From the IMG/VR virus record IMGVR_UViG_3300004805_000032, positions 1-24,824 of that record: a stretch of 24,824 bases of DNA; one strand, given 5' to 3'. The position numbers and the translations under genes were made by a program. The notes under the pieces were generated by a model, which was not told the DNA's origin, did no database searches, and saw only the letters and a program-made list of their open reading frames with translations. The stretch comes from a virus. Below, piece by piece: positions 4,993 to 19,750 of this stretch. Position 1 is the first letter of the stretch; every line of letters begins with the position of its first letter.

Positions 4993-5436
4993 TTAATCAA
5001 CAAACGCTTTCATACGTTGTGCGTGCTCAAAAGATTTTACTTTAGAAATAATCTCTCGTGCTTGCAACGTAATGAACACAACCGGAGCGCCTTCATCACC
5101 CGCATCAACTACATAGCGATCACCGCCATATTTAATTGTGCGAACTAGGTCCCCCACCTGACACCAAGGTCCTTCGATCCATGGTGATAAATCTTCTAAG
5201 TTTTTGTATGCCAAGGGTCCAATTTGAATTACCTTAGCCACAGTCTCATTAAATTTAATGGTTTGCGTTGTCTCGTCTACTAGAATGATCCCACCTTTTG
5301 AGGTTGTTTTTTCGCGACGTAGTTGAACTAACACGCGATCGCCTAGCACTTCAATGCCCGGCTCAACACTAGGAAAACATTCTAACTCTGAACGTAAATC
5401 TGGCTCGTCCTTAGCCTTTAAATCGTATGCAGCCAT
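4993..5436 (-). CDS. GroES-like co-chaperonin
   Basis: A 147-residue protein with a Cpn10 domain from about residue 25. VLGDRVLVQLRREKTTSKGG corresponds to the GroES N-terminal strand and mobile loop; GGIIL (48-52) is the hydrophobic tripeptide region that docks on GroEL; then AKVIQIG and GDLVRTIKYGG follow the family pattern. The N-terminal 25 residues and the insertion after QIG (KNLEDLSPWIEGPW) are extra compared with the about 97-residue bacterial protein. By analogy with T4 gp31 and other phage co-chaperonins it probably works with host GroEL to fold the capsid protein, whose gene is in the same module. AAGGAG precedes the start. Confidence 0.88.
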   Translation of the reverse strand: MAAYDLKAKDEPDLRSELECFPSVEPGIEVLGDRVLVQLRREKTTSKGGIILVDETTQTIKFNETVAKVIQIGPLAYKNLEDLSPWIEGPWCQVGDLVRTIKYGGDRYVVDAGDEGAPVVFITLQAREIISKVKSFEHAQRMKAFVD

Positions 5437-9326: not shown

Positions 9327-9358
9327 TACTAATGCAAAAAATTCTTATGTTCCGCCCT
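9327..9358 (-). promoter_or_regulatory. Late promoter-like element, copy 2
   Basis: Minus-strand AGGGC(GGAA), 17 nt, then TGCATTAGTA. The first box overlaps the terminase stop codon, and the -10-like box is about 29 nt before the ATG at 9298. It would drive the portal unit. Confidence 0.72.
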
Positions 9359-10796
9359 ATTGAGTGTATGGGTTGACAAATTTTTTCTTGTTGTCGTCTG
9401 CATATGAATAGTCGCGTGCTGGTAAATAATCAAGTTGAATCCAACCTGAGTCACGCAATACACGCAACGCCTGAGACAGTGAATCAACGTAGTCATCATG
9501 ACCGCCGGCCTCTGGAAATGAACACACTTGCCTAAGAAAACGTTTGGCCCAGTCTGCAAAATCTTTCTTTTGAACGGTATCTTCTGGGATCCACACCTTG
9601 CCTTTAGCCACCAATGGTGCTACAATATTAAGACGCTGCACCTTATCAGCTCGGCCTGGATTGTATCCCCGTACCTCAATGCCTGAACTTTGAAGTTCTT
9701 GAATTAATGAGATACCCGCTGACTTATCTTCCATTAGTACCAGGTCGGCTTTACGCCCCTTACCAAAGTCGTTATCGGCACCATACACTACCTCTTTAAA
9801 GTCGTCAATGACTTTACGGCGCAGTTCTGGGTAAGCTAAGTGTGCATCCCATGCATCAAGTAAGATGACGCCTGTGTCTGAATCCTCTTGTTCAAAAATG
9901 CCCCAGATAGTGCAAGCCGTCGGGTCGTTCATTGTTTTTTCTGAAGTTGCCGGATCATATGATGCAATCACATACTCAAGCACTGGGGTTGGTTTATTAG
10001 CTGGCCACATGCGGAACTGTTTGCGTTTGATGATACCGGCTTGTTCCGGATCCAAGATCTCGCCATAAATCTCTTGGCGGCCTAGGTCTGTGCCGTCATA
10101 TGACTCTAGTTGTTTAAAGAACGTGGCTGACAGGTTGTCTTTGTTATCATAAGACGACGCGTTGACCACGTACACGTCGCCGCCCACCGTTCCCTCATTC
10201 AGATCAACGATGAGCTCTTTTGGTTTAGGTGTTGTGGTGATGATCTGCTGAACTCGAGGTATACGTGGATCTTTAAGTCGCAGCGTAAATTGCACACCGT
10301 CGTATGCTTCATCGAGATAATCAAACGCACAGAGCTCATCGAACCAGGCGCCGTGGTATTGCTTACCACGATAACGTTCTGGTTCGGACGCAGGGATTCC
10401 CTGTATGATAGACCCGTTGGTTAATGTAATTTCAAAGAGTGACTTGTTATAGTCGCGAATAAGCGACTTGGGGATGATGTTCATGAGCCCCGAGTCACCT
10501 TCAAAACAGGTTGCTCGGATGTCGTTTGACGTTGGGGCTGTGACTAACCAGCGTGTGCCCGGGTAACGCCATGCGCGAATACCGATCCAATGCGATGCTG
10601 TGTGGGTCTTGCCAGATCCCCGTCCTGCCAACATGAGGAACGTGTCATATTCCCCGTCTTCAGGTTCTTTTTGATGGGGCAGTGCTTGAAGTGCCCACTT
10701 GGTGCGCCAAATAAGCGCGTCCAGTTGATCTTTGGGCCAATGTTTTCGTGCTGCTGCAAACTTCTTTAATTCAAGTTCTTGTTGTGCTGTTAGCAT
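9357..10796 (-). CDS. terL: Terminase large subunit
   Basis: A 479-residue packaging motor with all expected parts. The ATPase has Walker A AGRGSGKT at 57-64, Walker B HGAWFDE at 148-154 and coupling motif TTT at 187-189. The RNase H-like nuclease has Asp in YDPA at 281, Glu-Asp in LMEDKSAG at 356-357 and a final acidic pair in GGHDDYVDSL at 433-437. Length is normal for the family. The start codon ATG overlaps the end of the upstream Hint gene (ATGCTAA), and a GGAGAAGGA site lies inside that gene, so the two are translationally coupled. No small terminase is recognisable in the window. It cuts concatemers and pumps DNA through the portal. Confidence 0.95.
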   Translation of the reverse strand: MLTAQQELELKKFAAARKHWPKDQLDALIWRTKWALQALPHQKEPEDGEYDTFLMLAGRGSGKTHTASHWIGIRAWRYPGTRWLVTAPTSNDIRATCFEGDSGLMNIIPKSLIRDYNKSLFEITLTNGSIIQGIPASEPERYRGKQYHGAWFDELCAFDYLDEAYDGVQFTLRLKDPRIPRVQQIITTTPKPKELIVDLNEGTVGGDVYVVNASSYDNKDNLSATFFKQLESYDGTDLGRQEIYGEILDPEQAGIIKRKQFRMWPANKPTPVLEYVIASYDPATSEKTMNDPTACTIWGIFEQEDSDTGVILLDAWDAHLAYPELRRKVIDDFKEVVYGADNDFGKGRKADLVLMEDKSAGISLIQELQSSGIEVRGYNPGRADKVQRLNIVAPLVAKGKVWIPEDTVQKKDFADWAKRFLRQVCSFPEAGGHDDYVDSLSQALRVLRDSGWIQLDYLPARDYSYADDNKKKFVNPYTQ

Positions 10797-11788
10797 ACGC
10801 TAATATATCCTTCTCCGGCTAGTATCGAGTTATCATCGCCTGTCGTCTCAATGTGAACCACCATTTGTCCAGGTATCTGATTGATTTTTTTAATATATCT
10901 TCTTGCATGGTGCACTTTTACTGGGTTTGACACTTGGTTTGGTACCAGTGTGTGCTTTGTTCTAAAACTTAACGTGTAATACCCATAGTGCGCGTCTTGT
11001 TTTACCCTAGTCCTGCACCCCAATGACTCTACGAGCCCTTGGATTTGTTGGATTGTTGGAAAATCTCCCGTTGTTATCCTAAACCAGTCGGTTTTTTTAT
11101 CATACTGCCTAGATTTTCCATTAACTAATCCAGACAAGAGCTCGACACGCTCTTCCGGTGACGCCATCAAATAATTTGTTGGTATCTTTGTTGGAATGTT
11201 TGGGGCAAGCTGCCACTCAATGTTTGGTTCTTCGTAAAATCTTTGCAGTCTGCCACGAAATGCGTTGAGTTCTGTGGTCTTATACCCTGCGTCTTTGAAT
11301 TTTTGGTAAATAAAATCTTTGGCTTCTGCATTTGCCGTGAATGTTTTGTGCGCTTTTCTATTAAAGAACCAGTATCCAAAGATAAACGGTGGTATACCAG
11401 GTGTTTGCGCTGGAAACTGAATCGGCTTGGTGGTCGGAATAGAAAATTCTTTCCTATTGTTTCTACCAAATATTCCGGTCTCTTGTATCTCTGCCACACT
11501 TAAGAATTTTAGTGGTCGTTTAAATCCATTCTTTTTGACCATCTTGTATTCGTGCAATCGTTTTCTGTACTTCTCGTTCTCTGCCCTAAATGATAACCTA
11601 GCGTCTCCGCTAATTGTCAGGTAGTCATCAAACGTTATCTCATAACAATCTTCGGCGTGGTACTGCTGAACCAAGGTAACCTGTACCGGCTTACCGTCCT
11701 TATCAAATACCCAGTCCCCCACCTCAATGTGGCGGGCGTACTTCCAATAATCCAAGGTTAATACCGATTGGGTCGCTGTGATTGCCAT
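10790..11788 (-). CDS. Degenerate intein-like (Hint/LAGLIDADG) protein next to terminase
   Basis: A 332-residue protein from the ATG at 11788, which has GGA 9 nt upstream; a longer frame from 11854 lacks such a site. Residues about 8-66 resemble intein blocks A-B (SVLTLDYWKYARHIEVGDWVF ... YLTISGDARLSF), and 310-332 resemble blocks F-G (VVHIETTGDDNSILAGEGYISVC). Key residues are missing: Ser rather than Cys at the expected first position, Ala in place of the block B His, and no His-Asn at the end. The middle resembles LAGLIDADG endonuclease blocks (FIFGYWFFN 135-143, LLSGLVNGK 217-225), but the catalytic acids are not evident. It thus looks like a free-standing, probably splicing-dead intein relative kept beside terminase. 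Its function is unknown. Confidence 0.7.
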   Translation of the reverse strand: MAITATQSVLTLDYWKYARHIEVGDWVFDKDGKPVQVTLVQQYHAEDCYEITFDDYLTISGDARLSFRAENEKYRKRLHEYKMVKKNGFKRPLKFLSVAEIQETGIFGRNNRKEFSIPTTKPIQFPAQTPGIPPFIFGYWFFNRKAHKTFTANAEAKDFIYQKFKDAGYKTTELNAFRGRLQRFYEEPNIEWQLAPNIPTKIPTNYLMASPEERVELLSGLVNGKSRQYDKKTDWFRITTGDFPTIQQIQGLVESLGCRTRVKQDAHYGYYTLSFRTKHTLVPNQVSNPVKVHHARRYIKKINQIPGQMVVHIETTGDDNSILAGEGYISVC

Positions 11789-11848: not shown

Positions 11849-11868
11849 ATGCACCCCGAAGGGTGCAT
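11849..11868 (-). terminator. UUCG-tetraloop hairpin after pqqA
   Basis: An eight-bp perfect stem, ATGCACCC-TTCG-GGGTGCAT on the minus strand, giving the extra-stable C(UUCG)G tetraloop only in this orientation. It begins 6 nt after the pqqA stop codon. The T tract after it is weak (AGTTTGCTTG), so it may act as an mRNA 3' stabiliser as much as a terminator. Confidence 0.65.
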
Positions 11869-11874
11869 GTCATA

Positions 11875-11946
11875 TTACTTGTTCATTACGTACATTGTTA
11901 CTTCAAATCCAAAACGCATTTCAGTAGCTGCTGGTTTAGTCCACAT
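11875..11946 (-). CDS. pqqA: PqqA: precursor peptide of pyrroloquinoline quinone
   Basis: A 23-residue ORF beginning MWTKPAATEMRFGFEVTMY and ending VMNK. It has the length and pattern of proteobacterial PqqA peptides (MWxKPAxxxxRxGxEVTxY). Glu15 and Tyr19, in E-V-T-M-Y, are the two residues that PqqE cross-links and that become PQQ. GGAG lies 8 nt upstream of the ATG. A copy of the late promoter-like element lies about 100 nt upstream, and a UUCG hairpin follows the stop, so the gene is a self-contained late mini-unit. No pqqB-E genes are in the window, so the host would have to process the peptide. It is probably an auxiliary metabolic gene that boosts PQQ for quinoprotein dehydrogenases such as methanol dehydrogenase (inference). 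The match is by memory of the family; no search was run. Confidence 0.9.
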   Translation of the reverse strand: MWTKPAATEMRFGFEVTMYVMNK

Positions 11947-12049
11947 GATGTATCTCCAAGTTTAAAAATAGTTGTAGGTATAAACTAATCGTTTACATCT
12001 ACACTAATTCATAAACTAACCAATAGCTGGCTAAGTATTATCATGATTA

Positions 12050-12081
12050 TACTAATGCACAAACTGGGCCGTTTCAGCCGT
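12050..12081 (-). promoter_or_regulatory. Late promoter-like element, copy 4 (pqqA)
   Basis: Minus-strand ACGGC, 17 nt, then TGCATTAGTA, with one mismatch to the other copies in the first box. It is the only such element upstream of pqqA and gives a predicted leader near 95 nt. A weaker look-alike (minus TGAATTAGTG, same spacing to an unmatched box) lies at 12002-12033. Confidence 0.65.
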
Positions 12082-18932: not shown

Positions 18933-19139
18933 ATGGAACTAAAGATTCACGTCGACTCGGATCAATTGCATGACATGGTTAAGGCAAGCTTGGTCGAGTA
19001 CCATGATTATTTAAGCAAGGCAAATTGGATGAATGAGGATGATAACAGAATTAAAATCCGAGATGCGTTTGTGATAGTGCTCGAGCAATACATGACACCA
19101 AAGGAGTATGCAAACTACATTGCAAGATTTGTGAATTAG
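18933..19139 (+). CDS. Small protein, unknown (68 aa)
   Basis: GGAGGCATAAC directly precedes the ATG. Sequence MELKIHVDSDQLHDMVKASL, then LVEYHDYLSKANWMNEDDNR and IVLEQYMTPKEYANYIARFV. It is probably all-helical after a first strand. Its stop TAG shares a base with the GTG proposed for the sigma gene. Function unknown. Confidence 0.6.
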   Translation: MELKIHVDSDQLHDMVKASLVEYHDYLSKANWMNEDDNRIKIRDAFVIVLEQYMTPKEYANYIARFVN

Positions 19140-19750
19140 TGGTATATTCGGGGGATTCCAACAATGGAGAATTCCCCTTGAAAGATAATTACGACACACT
19201 AAACCAATACTTGCAAGGTTTGTTTGGCATTGAGCCATTGCCGGTTAAAGAAGAGCACGAACTAGCAAGGCGAATTCAAGCCGGCGATGATAAGGCATTA
19301 GACAAGTTGGTTAAGCATAACTTGCGATTTGTGGTGTACGTATTAAAACAGACATCGGCATGGAATCATGGCAACACACCGGTCGATGACTTAATTAACA
19401 TAGGCAACGAGCAATTAGTAAAAGCGGCAAAGAGGTGGGTACCCACTAACAATGCTCGCTTTGCTACCTTTGCCAAGTCTTTTATATTAAAAGGCACACG
19501 CAGAGAACTTGATAACACGACGCACATGATCAGACTGCCGGTGAATATATCAGAGCAGATTAAAAAGATGAGCTACCTCGAACGCACCCTTGGTCAAGTG
19601 CTCGGTCGTAAGCCAAAGACATCGGAGGTGGCAACGATGATGGGTGTAGGTGAAAACAAGGTGCTACAATTGCAGTCGTACTTAATTCGAGAGCCTGTAA
19701 GCCTCGATGCTATTAACGAAGAAAATACAGAGGATAATCATCATGAGTAA
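19139..19750 (+). CDS. Phage sigma factor lacking region 4
   Basis: A sigma70-family protein of 203 residues (GTG start overlapping the previous stop as TAGTG). An alternative TTG at 19178 has GGAGA 7 nt upstream and would give 190 residues. Region 1.2-like sequence lies at about 24-50 (YLQGLFGIEPLPVKEEHELA). Region 2 at about 53-130 has LVKHNLRFVVYVLKQT, PVDDLINIGNEQLVKAAKRW and ARFATFAKSFILKGTRREL, the -10 recognition part. Region 3 at about 133-192 has GRKPKTSEVATMMGVGENK and the REPVSLDA linker. The protein ends there, so region 4, which reads -35 boxes and binds the beta flap, is absent, as in T4 gp55. It most likely redirects host RNA polymerase to the late promoter-like elements of the minus-strand module. 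Confidence 0.88.
   Translation: MVYSGDSNNGEFPLKDNYDTLNQYLQGLFGIEPLPVKEEHELARRIQAGDDKALDKLVKHNLRFVVYVLKQTSAWNHGNTPVDDLINIGNEQLVKAAKRWVPTNNARFATFAKSFILKGTRRELDNTTHMIRLPVNISEQIKKMSYLERTLGQVLGRKPKTSEVATMMGVGENKVLQLQSYLIREPVSLDAINEENTEDNHHE

Follow-up and report, generated by a model that had tools for sequence, protein, structure and literature searches.

A free-standing pqqA gene ahead of the terminase operon

The window, that is, the whole 24,824-nucleotide stretch of viral DNA analysed here, carries a free-standing pqqA gene that we consider likely to be functional in a tailed phage of methylotrophs and, by supplying only the substrate of the pathway, to keep or raise PQQ loading late in infection. 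The window is a piece of a tailed-phage genome encoding a terminase, a portal, a major head protein, a GroES-like protein, a primase, and a sigma factor. Within it, pqqA heads the minus-strand late operon, being followed by an intein-like ORF and then by the large terminase (Table 1).

Table 1. Location of pqqA, its putative control signals, and other genes in the window.
Feature	Position	Strand	Basis
pqqA, 23 codons + stop, MWTKPAATEMRFGFEVTMYVMNK	11875..11946	minus	profile matches PF08042, TIGR02107
Shine-Dalgarno GGAG, 7 nt before ATG	11954..11957	minus	sequence
UUCG-loop hairpin ATGCACCC-TTCG-GGGTGCAT, 3' of stop	11849..11868	minus	folding vs shuffles
Proximal late-strand promoter-like element TGAATTAGTG	12002..12011	minus	motif counts, window
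Distal late-strand promoter-like element TGCATTAGTA	12050..12059	minus	motif counts, window and relatives
Intein/Hint-like ORF, 332 aa, between pqqA and terminase	10790..11788	minus	same place in 79/80 TerL-clade loci; PHROG match
Terminase large subunit	9357..10796	minus	PHROGs phrog_2 and others, E 1e-28
GroES-like co-chaperonin, late gene cluster	4993-5436	minus	PHROG phrog_3188, 5.7e-11
Phage sigma-70-like factor	19139..19750	plus	PHROG phrog_351, 7e-27; Pfam Sigma70_r2/r3/r1_2 above cut-offs

The window peptide matched PF08042 over 19/19 positions with 42.4 bits (cut-off 21.1) and the NCBIfam equivalog TIGR02107 over 21/21 positions with 40.4 bits (cut-off 20), both scores being about twice the curated cut-offs, which identifies MWTKPAATEMRFGFEVTMYVMNK as a full-length PqqA; in the record itself, the PF08042 match had an E-value of 1.7e-11. 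The residues that become cross-linked in PqqA, Glu15 and Tyr19, are both present and separated by three residues (E-x3-Y), as expected from the initial annotation, which had recognised a 23-codon ORF with the PqqA signature. The interval that it assigned to the gene, 11849-11946, was right as to the ORF but included the downstream hairpin too. PqqA copies with exactly this sequence exist in Methylophilaceae genomes; a PDB sequence search with the peptide found no match, and PHROGs, the library of phage proteins, contains no PqqA family.

No pqqB-E genes were found adjacent to viral pqqA in the loci of the 120 first IMG/VR stretches examined (see below). Such an operon is the usual context of pqqA and not a strict definition of it, and its absence does not exclude membership of the PqqA family, since 103 of the 126 Methylophilaceae copies seen in their loci also lie apart from pqqBCDE.

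Relatives of the window phage

A search with the terminase recovered 408 relatives, the best 80 loci of which (L250-L329) were examined. Ten of these 80 carried pqqA directly before the intein-like ORF, with Glu, Tyr, and the reading frame intact, so that the proposed check for the same ORF upstream of the terminase operon in related phages turned out positive. When 32 long records of the TerL clade were searched over their whole length, pqqA was present anywhere in nine of them, and the lack of the gene in most relatives counts against our preferred reading, with the reservation that many of the records are incomplete and of unknown host. In the TerL tree, the pqqA-bearing rows fell in one group with 93% support, together with two negatives, a distribution requiring two changes.

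In relatives without pqqA, its slot was occupied by an orphan ORF of about 100 amino acids (M.KYVYQIQGALEN...) in 59 loci (e.g., L283, L305, and L254), which had no Pfam or PHROG match and was found in no pqqA-bearing locus among the best 80 of 408. This mutual exclusion in a single slot gives the appearance of an exchange of one first late gene for another in the clade of the window.

The 332-amino-acid ORF, which is the first of the long ORFs in the late operon, aligned with the intein-like part of TerL profiles in PHROG and gave a weak match to Pfam Hom_end. The His-Asn typical of inteins is missing from its end (VVHIETTGDDNSILAGEGYISVC), and this stand-alone intein/Hint-like protein may be a domesticated intein.

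Putative control signals of pqqA

The GGAG motif upstream of the start codon agrees with the good ribosome-binding site previously ascribed to the gene. The claim of a hairpin directly after the stop held in part: the UUCG hairpin was recovered, with a minimum free energy of -19.2 kcal/mol versus -11.1 ± 2.5 kcal/mol for shuffles (z -3.3), but it starts 6 nt past the stop, its U-tract is weak, and by sequence it makes a weak terminator. It is possible that it acts as transcript end, as attenuator, or as an mRNA-stabilising stem. At the same place, hairpins of unrelated sequence were present in several of the clade members inspected (L253, L266, L299, L316), and a near-copy of that of the window in another one (L251); some of the unrelated hairpins in pqqA-bearing relatives have a clear U-tract.

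The window contains the motif TGMATTAGTR five times (0.3 expected; 0/100 shuffles had as many), in four cases on the late strand, with two copies directly upstream of pqqA, matching the late-promoter-like element described before, and two more upstream of other late-strand genes. Among the best 80 of the 408 TerL loci, TTGCATTAGTA appeared 59 times, always on the terminase strand and in 49 cases no more than 120 nt from an ORF start, and the promoter-like element is kept upstream of pqqA in the clade of the window. These elements support the designation of pqqA as a late gene in this clade, a timing that remains inferred since there are no expression data, and in the window they may be shared between pqqA and the late operon. 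A scan for the sigma-70 consensus upstream of pqqA gave nothing above shuffles. The sigma-70-like factor encoded by the phage is a candidate reader of the late-strand element, its role being inferred. In addition, in 31 of its 59 occurrences in the TerL-clade loci L250-L329, TTGCATTAGTA was followed by an ATG at a distance of exactly 5 nt; with such a spacing, late mRNAs would seem to be leaderless and to be transcribed with a phage sigma factor.

Conservation of viral pqqA cassettes

A degenerate search for GFEVTMY in IMG/VR returned at least 120 stretches, all 120 with complete short PqqA ORFs, in loci mostly of 4-14 kb. A wider search with degenerate patterns raised the number of stretches encoding PqqA to at least 586 (586 of the 600 listed). 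When codons 15 and 19 were left free in the scan, Glu and Tyr were still kept in 120/120 of the matches listed. These samples were motif-selected and taken from the first rows of the scan, and thus say nothing about the frequency of divergent peptides.

A Shine-Dalgarno-like core was present in all 144 viral cassettes, and a terminator-like hairpin was found within 87 nt in 55 of them, compared with 1% of random sites. The gene was intergenic in 121 of 122 cases and antisense to both neighbours in 48 of the 122. The exact peptide of the window was represented by 21 viral copies with 20 different nucleotide sequences, and pairwise codon differences within the clade of the window amounted to 101 synonymous versus 26 that were not. 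Together, these data describe a maintained and apparently self-contained gene and, as judged from the codon differences, viral pqqA is kept by purifying selection.

Recurrence in unrelated phages

Among 50,697 phage records, free-standing pqqA was found only in phages of Methylophilales (Venkman, P19250A, MEP301, MEP401/402, and Melnitz) and in one uncultured relative of Venkman. The window peptide and a Pseudomonas-type PqqA as queries both matched nothing else except bacterial contamination, and a Methylobacterium-type query revealed no further phages in these records. The entries named 'Acinetobacter phage MD-2021a' were rejected as carriers, as they are bacterial contigs in which a complete pqqBCDE operon, next to ppk, follows the peptide.

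The number of phage lineages was derived from TerL and capsid comparison of complete genomes, single linkage of shared proteins being unusable because mosaic phages chain together (226 fell into one component with one shared protein). No similarity of TerL or capsid was detected at E 1e-3 among the window, Venkman, P19250A, MEP301, and MEP401, and Melnitz is a T4-like phage of the Kyanoviridae (PMC9004378). By this comparison, pqqA is carried by at least six unrelated phage lineages, nearly all of them linked to methylotrophs. Long relatives of Venkman and P19250A carried the gene in 11 of 20 records. In Venkman, it lies in the replication region and antisense; OM43 phages carry pqqA in modules of different apparent timing, and 'late' does not apply generally. 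Other PqqA types were found beside terminase and portal genes in a few contigs (e.g., MKWSKPTYQKLRLGFEVTMYFKQV in L036), and phages of other PQQ makers may also carry the gene.

The presumption that so short a gene is widely missed proved well founded, as in the records of isolate phages pqqA is either unannotated or covered by an antisense 'hypothetical protein'. Antisense CDSs of this kind overlie pqqA in MZ577095-MZ577098 (Melnitz) and in MW202481 (ctXG6705), and they probably represent genes called on the wrong strand.

Of 40 phage records with pqqA, one has a gene for a PQQ-dependent alcohol dehydrogenase as well: the phage contig IMGVR_UViG_3300025120_009955 (72 kb; L051, L447/L448), whose enzyme, a PQQ dehydrogenase of the methanol/ethanol family, has an open frame of 628 aa and scored 608 bits.

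pqqA in the Methylophilaceae

All of the 100 Methylophilaceae genomes analysed contained pqqA, in 1-12 copies (mean 4.6) and with more than one copy in 97 of them, and 99 had a pqqE over the cut-off, mostly as a single copy. The proposed host type with a PQQ pathway is therefore well represented by this candidate family, even if the host of the window phage itself is inferred: from the peptide and the clade, it is most likely a PQQ-making methylotroph among the freshwater Methylophilaceae. The G+C content of the window (43%), near that of Methylotenera loci, is weak evidence as to the host.

Most of the host copies seen were free-standing mini-genes with terminators, many of them encoding exactly the window peptide, and a terminator-like hairpin was found in 97 of 125. 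The phage cassette thus resembles the orphan pqqA of the host, with which it shares the peptide, the layout of Shine-Dalgarno and terminator, and the separation from pqqBCDE. Unlike the host mini-genes, the window pqqA has phage late-strand promoter-like elements upstream and the terminase operon downstream of it. A length of 23 residues holds too little signal to reveal the donor of the gene. Multiple pqqA genes have been described for Methylovorus sp. MP688, as far as can be told from the citation of Ge et al. 2015 in PMC6520949. In several host genomes of Methylophilaceae type (L147, L150, L212, L222, L228, and L247), two pqqA genes lay about 200 bp apart, one of TQP...CNR/K type followed by one of the common type.

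Proposed function and alternatives

PQQ is built from the Glu and Tyr of PqqA, with one peptide spent per PQQ, and each catalytic subunit of methanol dehydrogenase holds one PQQ. It follows that PqqA is needed in protein-like amounts, and such a demand, in a host whose main enzyme is PQQ-dependent, fits the multiplicity of host pqqA. We propose that the phage gene would be transcribed from the late-strand promoter region and translated into a 23-residue PqqA identical to that of the host, and that host PqqD/PqqE, followed by a peptidase, PqqB, and PqqC, would turn it one-for-one into PQQ, a conversion that is inferred. The phage would then contribute the substrate only, the enzymes PqqB-E being those of the host. 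PQQ loading of methanol dehydrogenase would be kept or raised after host pqqA transcription falls, and methanol oxidation could go on yielding energy, as well as formaldehyde for nucleotide synthesis, during infection; this benefit is likewise inferred.

Experimental background is available from Gluconobacter and Acetobacter. According to the accounts given in PMC9851590 and PMC7936290, which cite the original work, purified PqqA added to Gluconobacter extract led to PQQ, and overexpression of pqqA as a single gene raised PQQ in Gluconobacter. In Acetobacter, pqqAB alone increased PQQ by only 29%, versus eightfold for the whole cluster (PMC7936290), so the precursor need not limit PQQ everywhere.

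The alternative that survives best, and which we regard as a real possibility without favouring it, is that phage pqqA merely replaces the host PqqA lost at the shutdown of host transcription or DNA, holding PQQ at the uninfected level. Hosts that already average 4.6 copies should have a sufficient supply before infection, and the identity of phage and host peptides agrees with such a replacement, although no host shut-off has been documented for these phages and sequence cannot separate maintenance from a boost. Another role of the peptide in both phages and host orphan copies, e.g., as a signal or a defence-related factor, would account for the many host copies apart from pqqBCDE; we find it unlikely, as conservation spans precisely the PQQ-forming motif, pqqA is restricted to phages of PQQ makers among the annotated phage records, and it co-occurs once with a PQQ dehydrogenase. 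Still less probable is a decoy or inhibitor, with PqqD/PqqE occupied by the peptide and either PQQ lowered or radical-SAM capacity diverted as a result. That a lone substrate peptide could saturate the enzyme is conceivable in principle, an inference with no analysis result behind it; a decoy would be free to lose both Glu15 and Tyr19, which every listed copy retained with those codons free, and the phage peptide is that of the host itself, which amplifies the same gene. Finally, transduced or misassembled host DNA without function, suggested by the host-identical peptide and by the equally short, self-contained host cassette, is hardly tenable, being already contradicted by the complete isolate genomes of unrelated phages that carry pqqA, and further by its recurrence at one position, with synonymous divergence, in 10 relatives, by the phage promoter elements upstream, and by the lack of nearby pqqB-E in the 120 stretches mentioned above.

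Returning to substrate supply as the preferred reading, the data suggest that many of the carrier phages need the supply of PQQ precursor kept open while they multiply. With less confidence, we lean slightly towards a broader reading in which infection of obligate methylotrophs is generally limited by the supply of PQQ precursor and unrelated phages have repeatedly captured the same substrate-only mini-gene from their hosts; in the clade of the window, it would have taken the place of the gene that opened the late operon, perhaps as the phages shifted to methylotroph hosts. If this were true, pqqA would be among the most recurrent host-lineage-specific auxiliary genes, hidden by its 23-codon length.

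Relation to known systems

A previous publication (Microbiome 2020, PMC7678222) described viral pqqA in one population from Lake Baikal, VP_266. There, as in the window, the gene belongs to a virus of methylotrophs, and it was interpreted as an auxiliary gene serving PQQ and methanol dehydrogenase. Hence, the PQQ interpretation of the initial annotation, supported by the checks run here, had already been in print since 2020. VP_266 was one annotated case in a virus that has methanol dehydrogenase too, whereas the window pqqA stands without one, and we find the gene in six or more unrelated lineages, among them cultured phages in whose papers it goes unmentioned. The open-access papers on Venkman, Melnitz, MEP301, and MEP401/402 make no mention of viral pqqA, and neither do an ocean-wide survey of auxiliary metabolic genes or the 2026 papers on a patescibacterial system; a 2026 reservoir paper lists it among phosphorus-cycling genes, without detail in the main text. 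In the open-access papers searched, we thus found no report of how widely the gene occurs across unrelated and cultured methylophages, of its substrate-only design, or of its absence from annotation.

Like the classical auxiliary metabolic genes phoH, mazG, and psbA, pqqA is a host-like gene kept, as we infer, to steer host metabolism, and it agrees with such genes in its location in a genuine phage genome, in a host homologue and pathway (the host being inferred), and in selection, whereas a change of host metabolism during infection is inferred. Unlike them, it encodes a consumed pathway substrate, a RiPP precursor, and not an enzyme. It resembles phage morons as a cassette that may be autonomous, with signals that may be its own, and that in many cases runs antisense to the neighbours, but its carriers here include phages isolated by lytic infection and the function proposed is metabolic supply.

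The Methylophilaceae (OM43, Methylopumilus, Methylotenera) are methanol oxidisers of seas and lakes. Should PqqA be common among their phages, viruses would control the supply of a cofactor and not only the amount of an enzyme, and infected cells may go on consuming methanol. Surveys of auxiliary genes overlook those shorter than the length limits of gene callers, and pqqA offers a cheap marker for viral contigs infecting PQQ-making methylotrophs. HTCC2181-MEP301, H5P1-Venkman, and Melnitz are existing phage-host model systems. As to the pqqA contig L051 with its PQQ dehydrogenase, it resembles the Baikal viruses in this respect.
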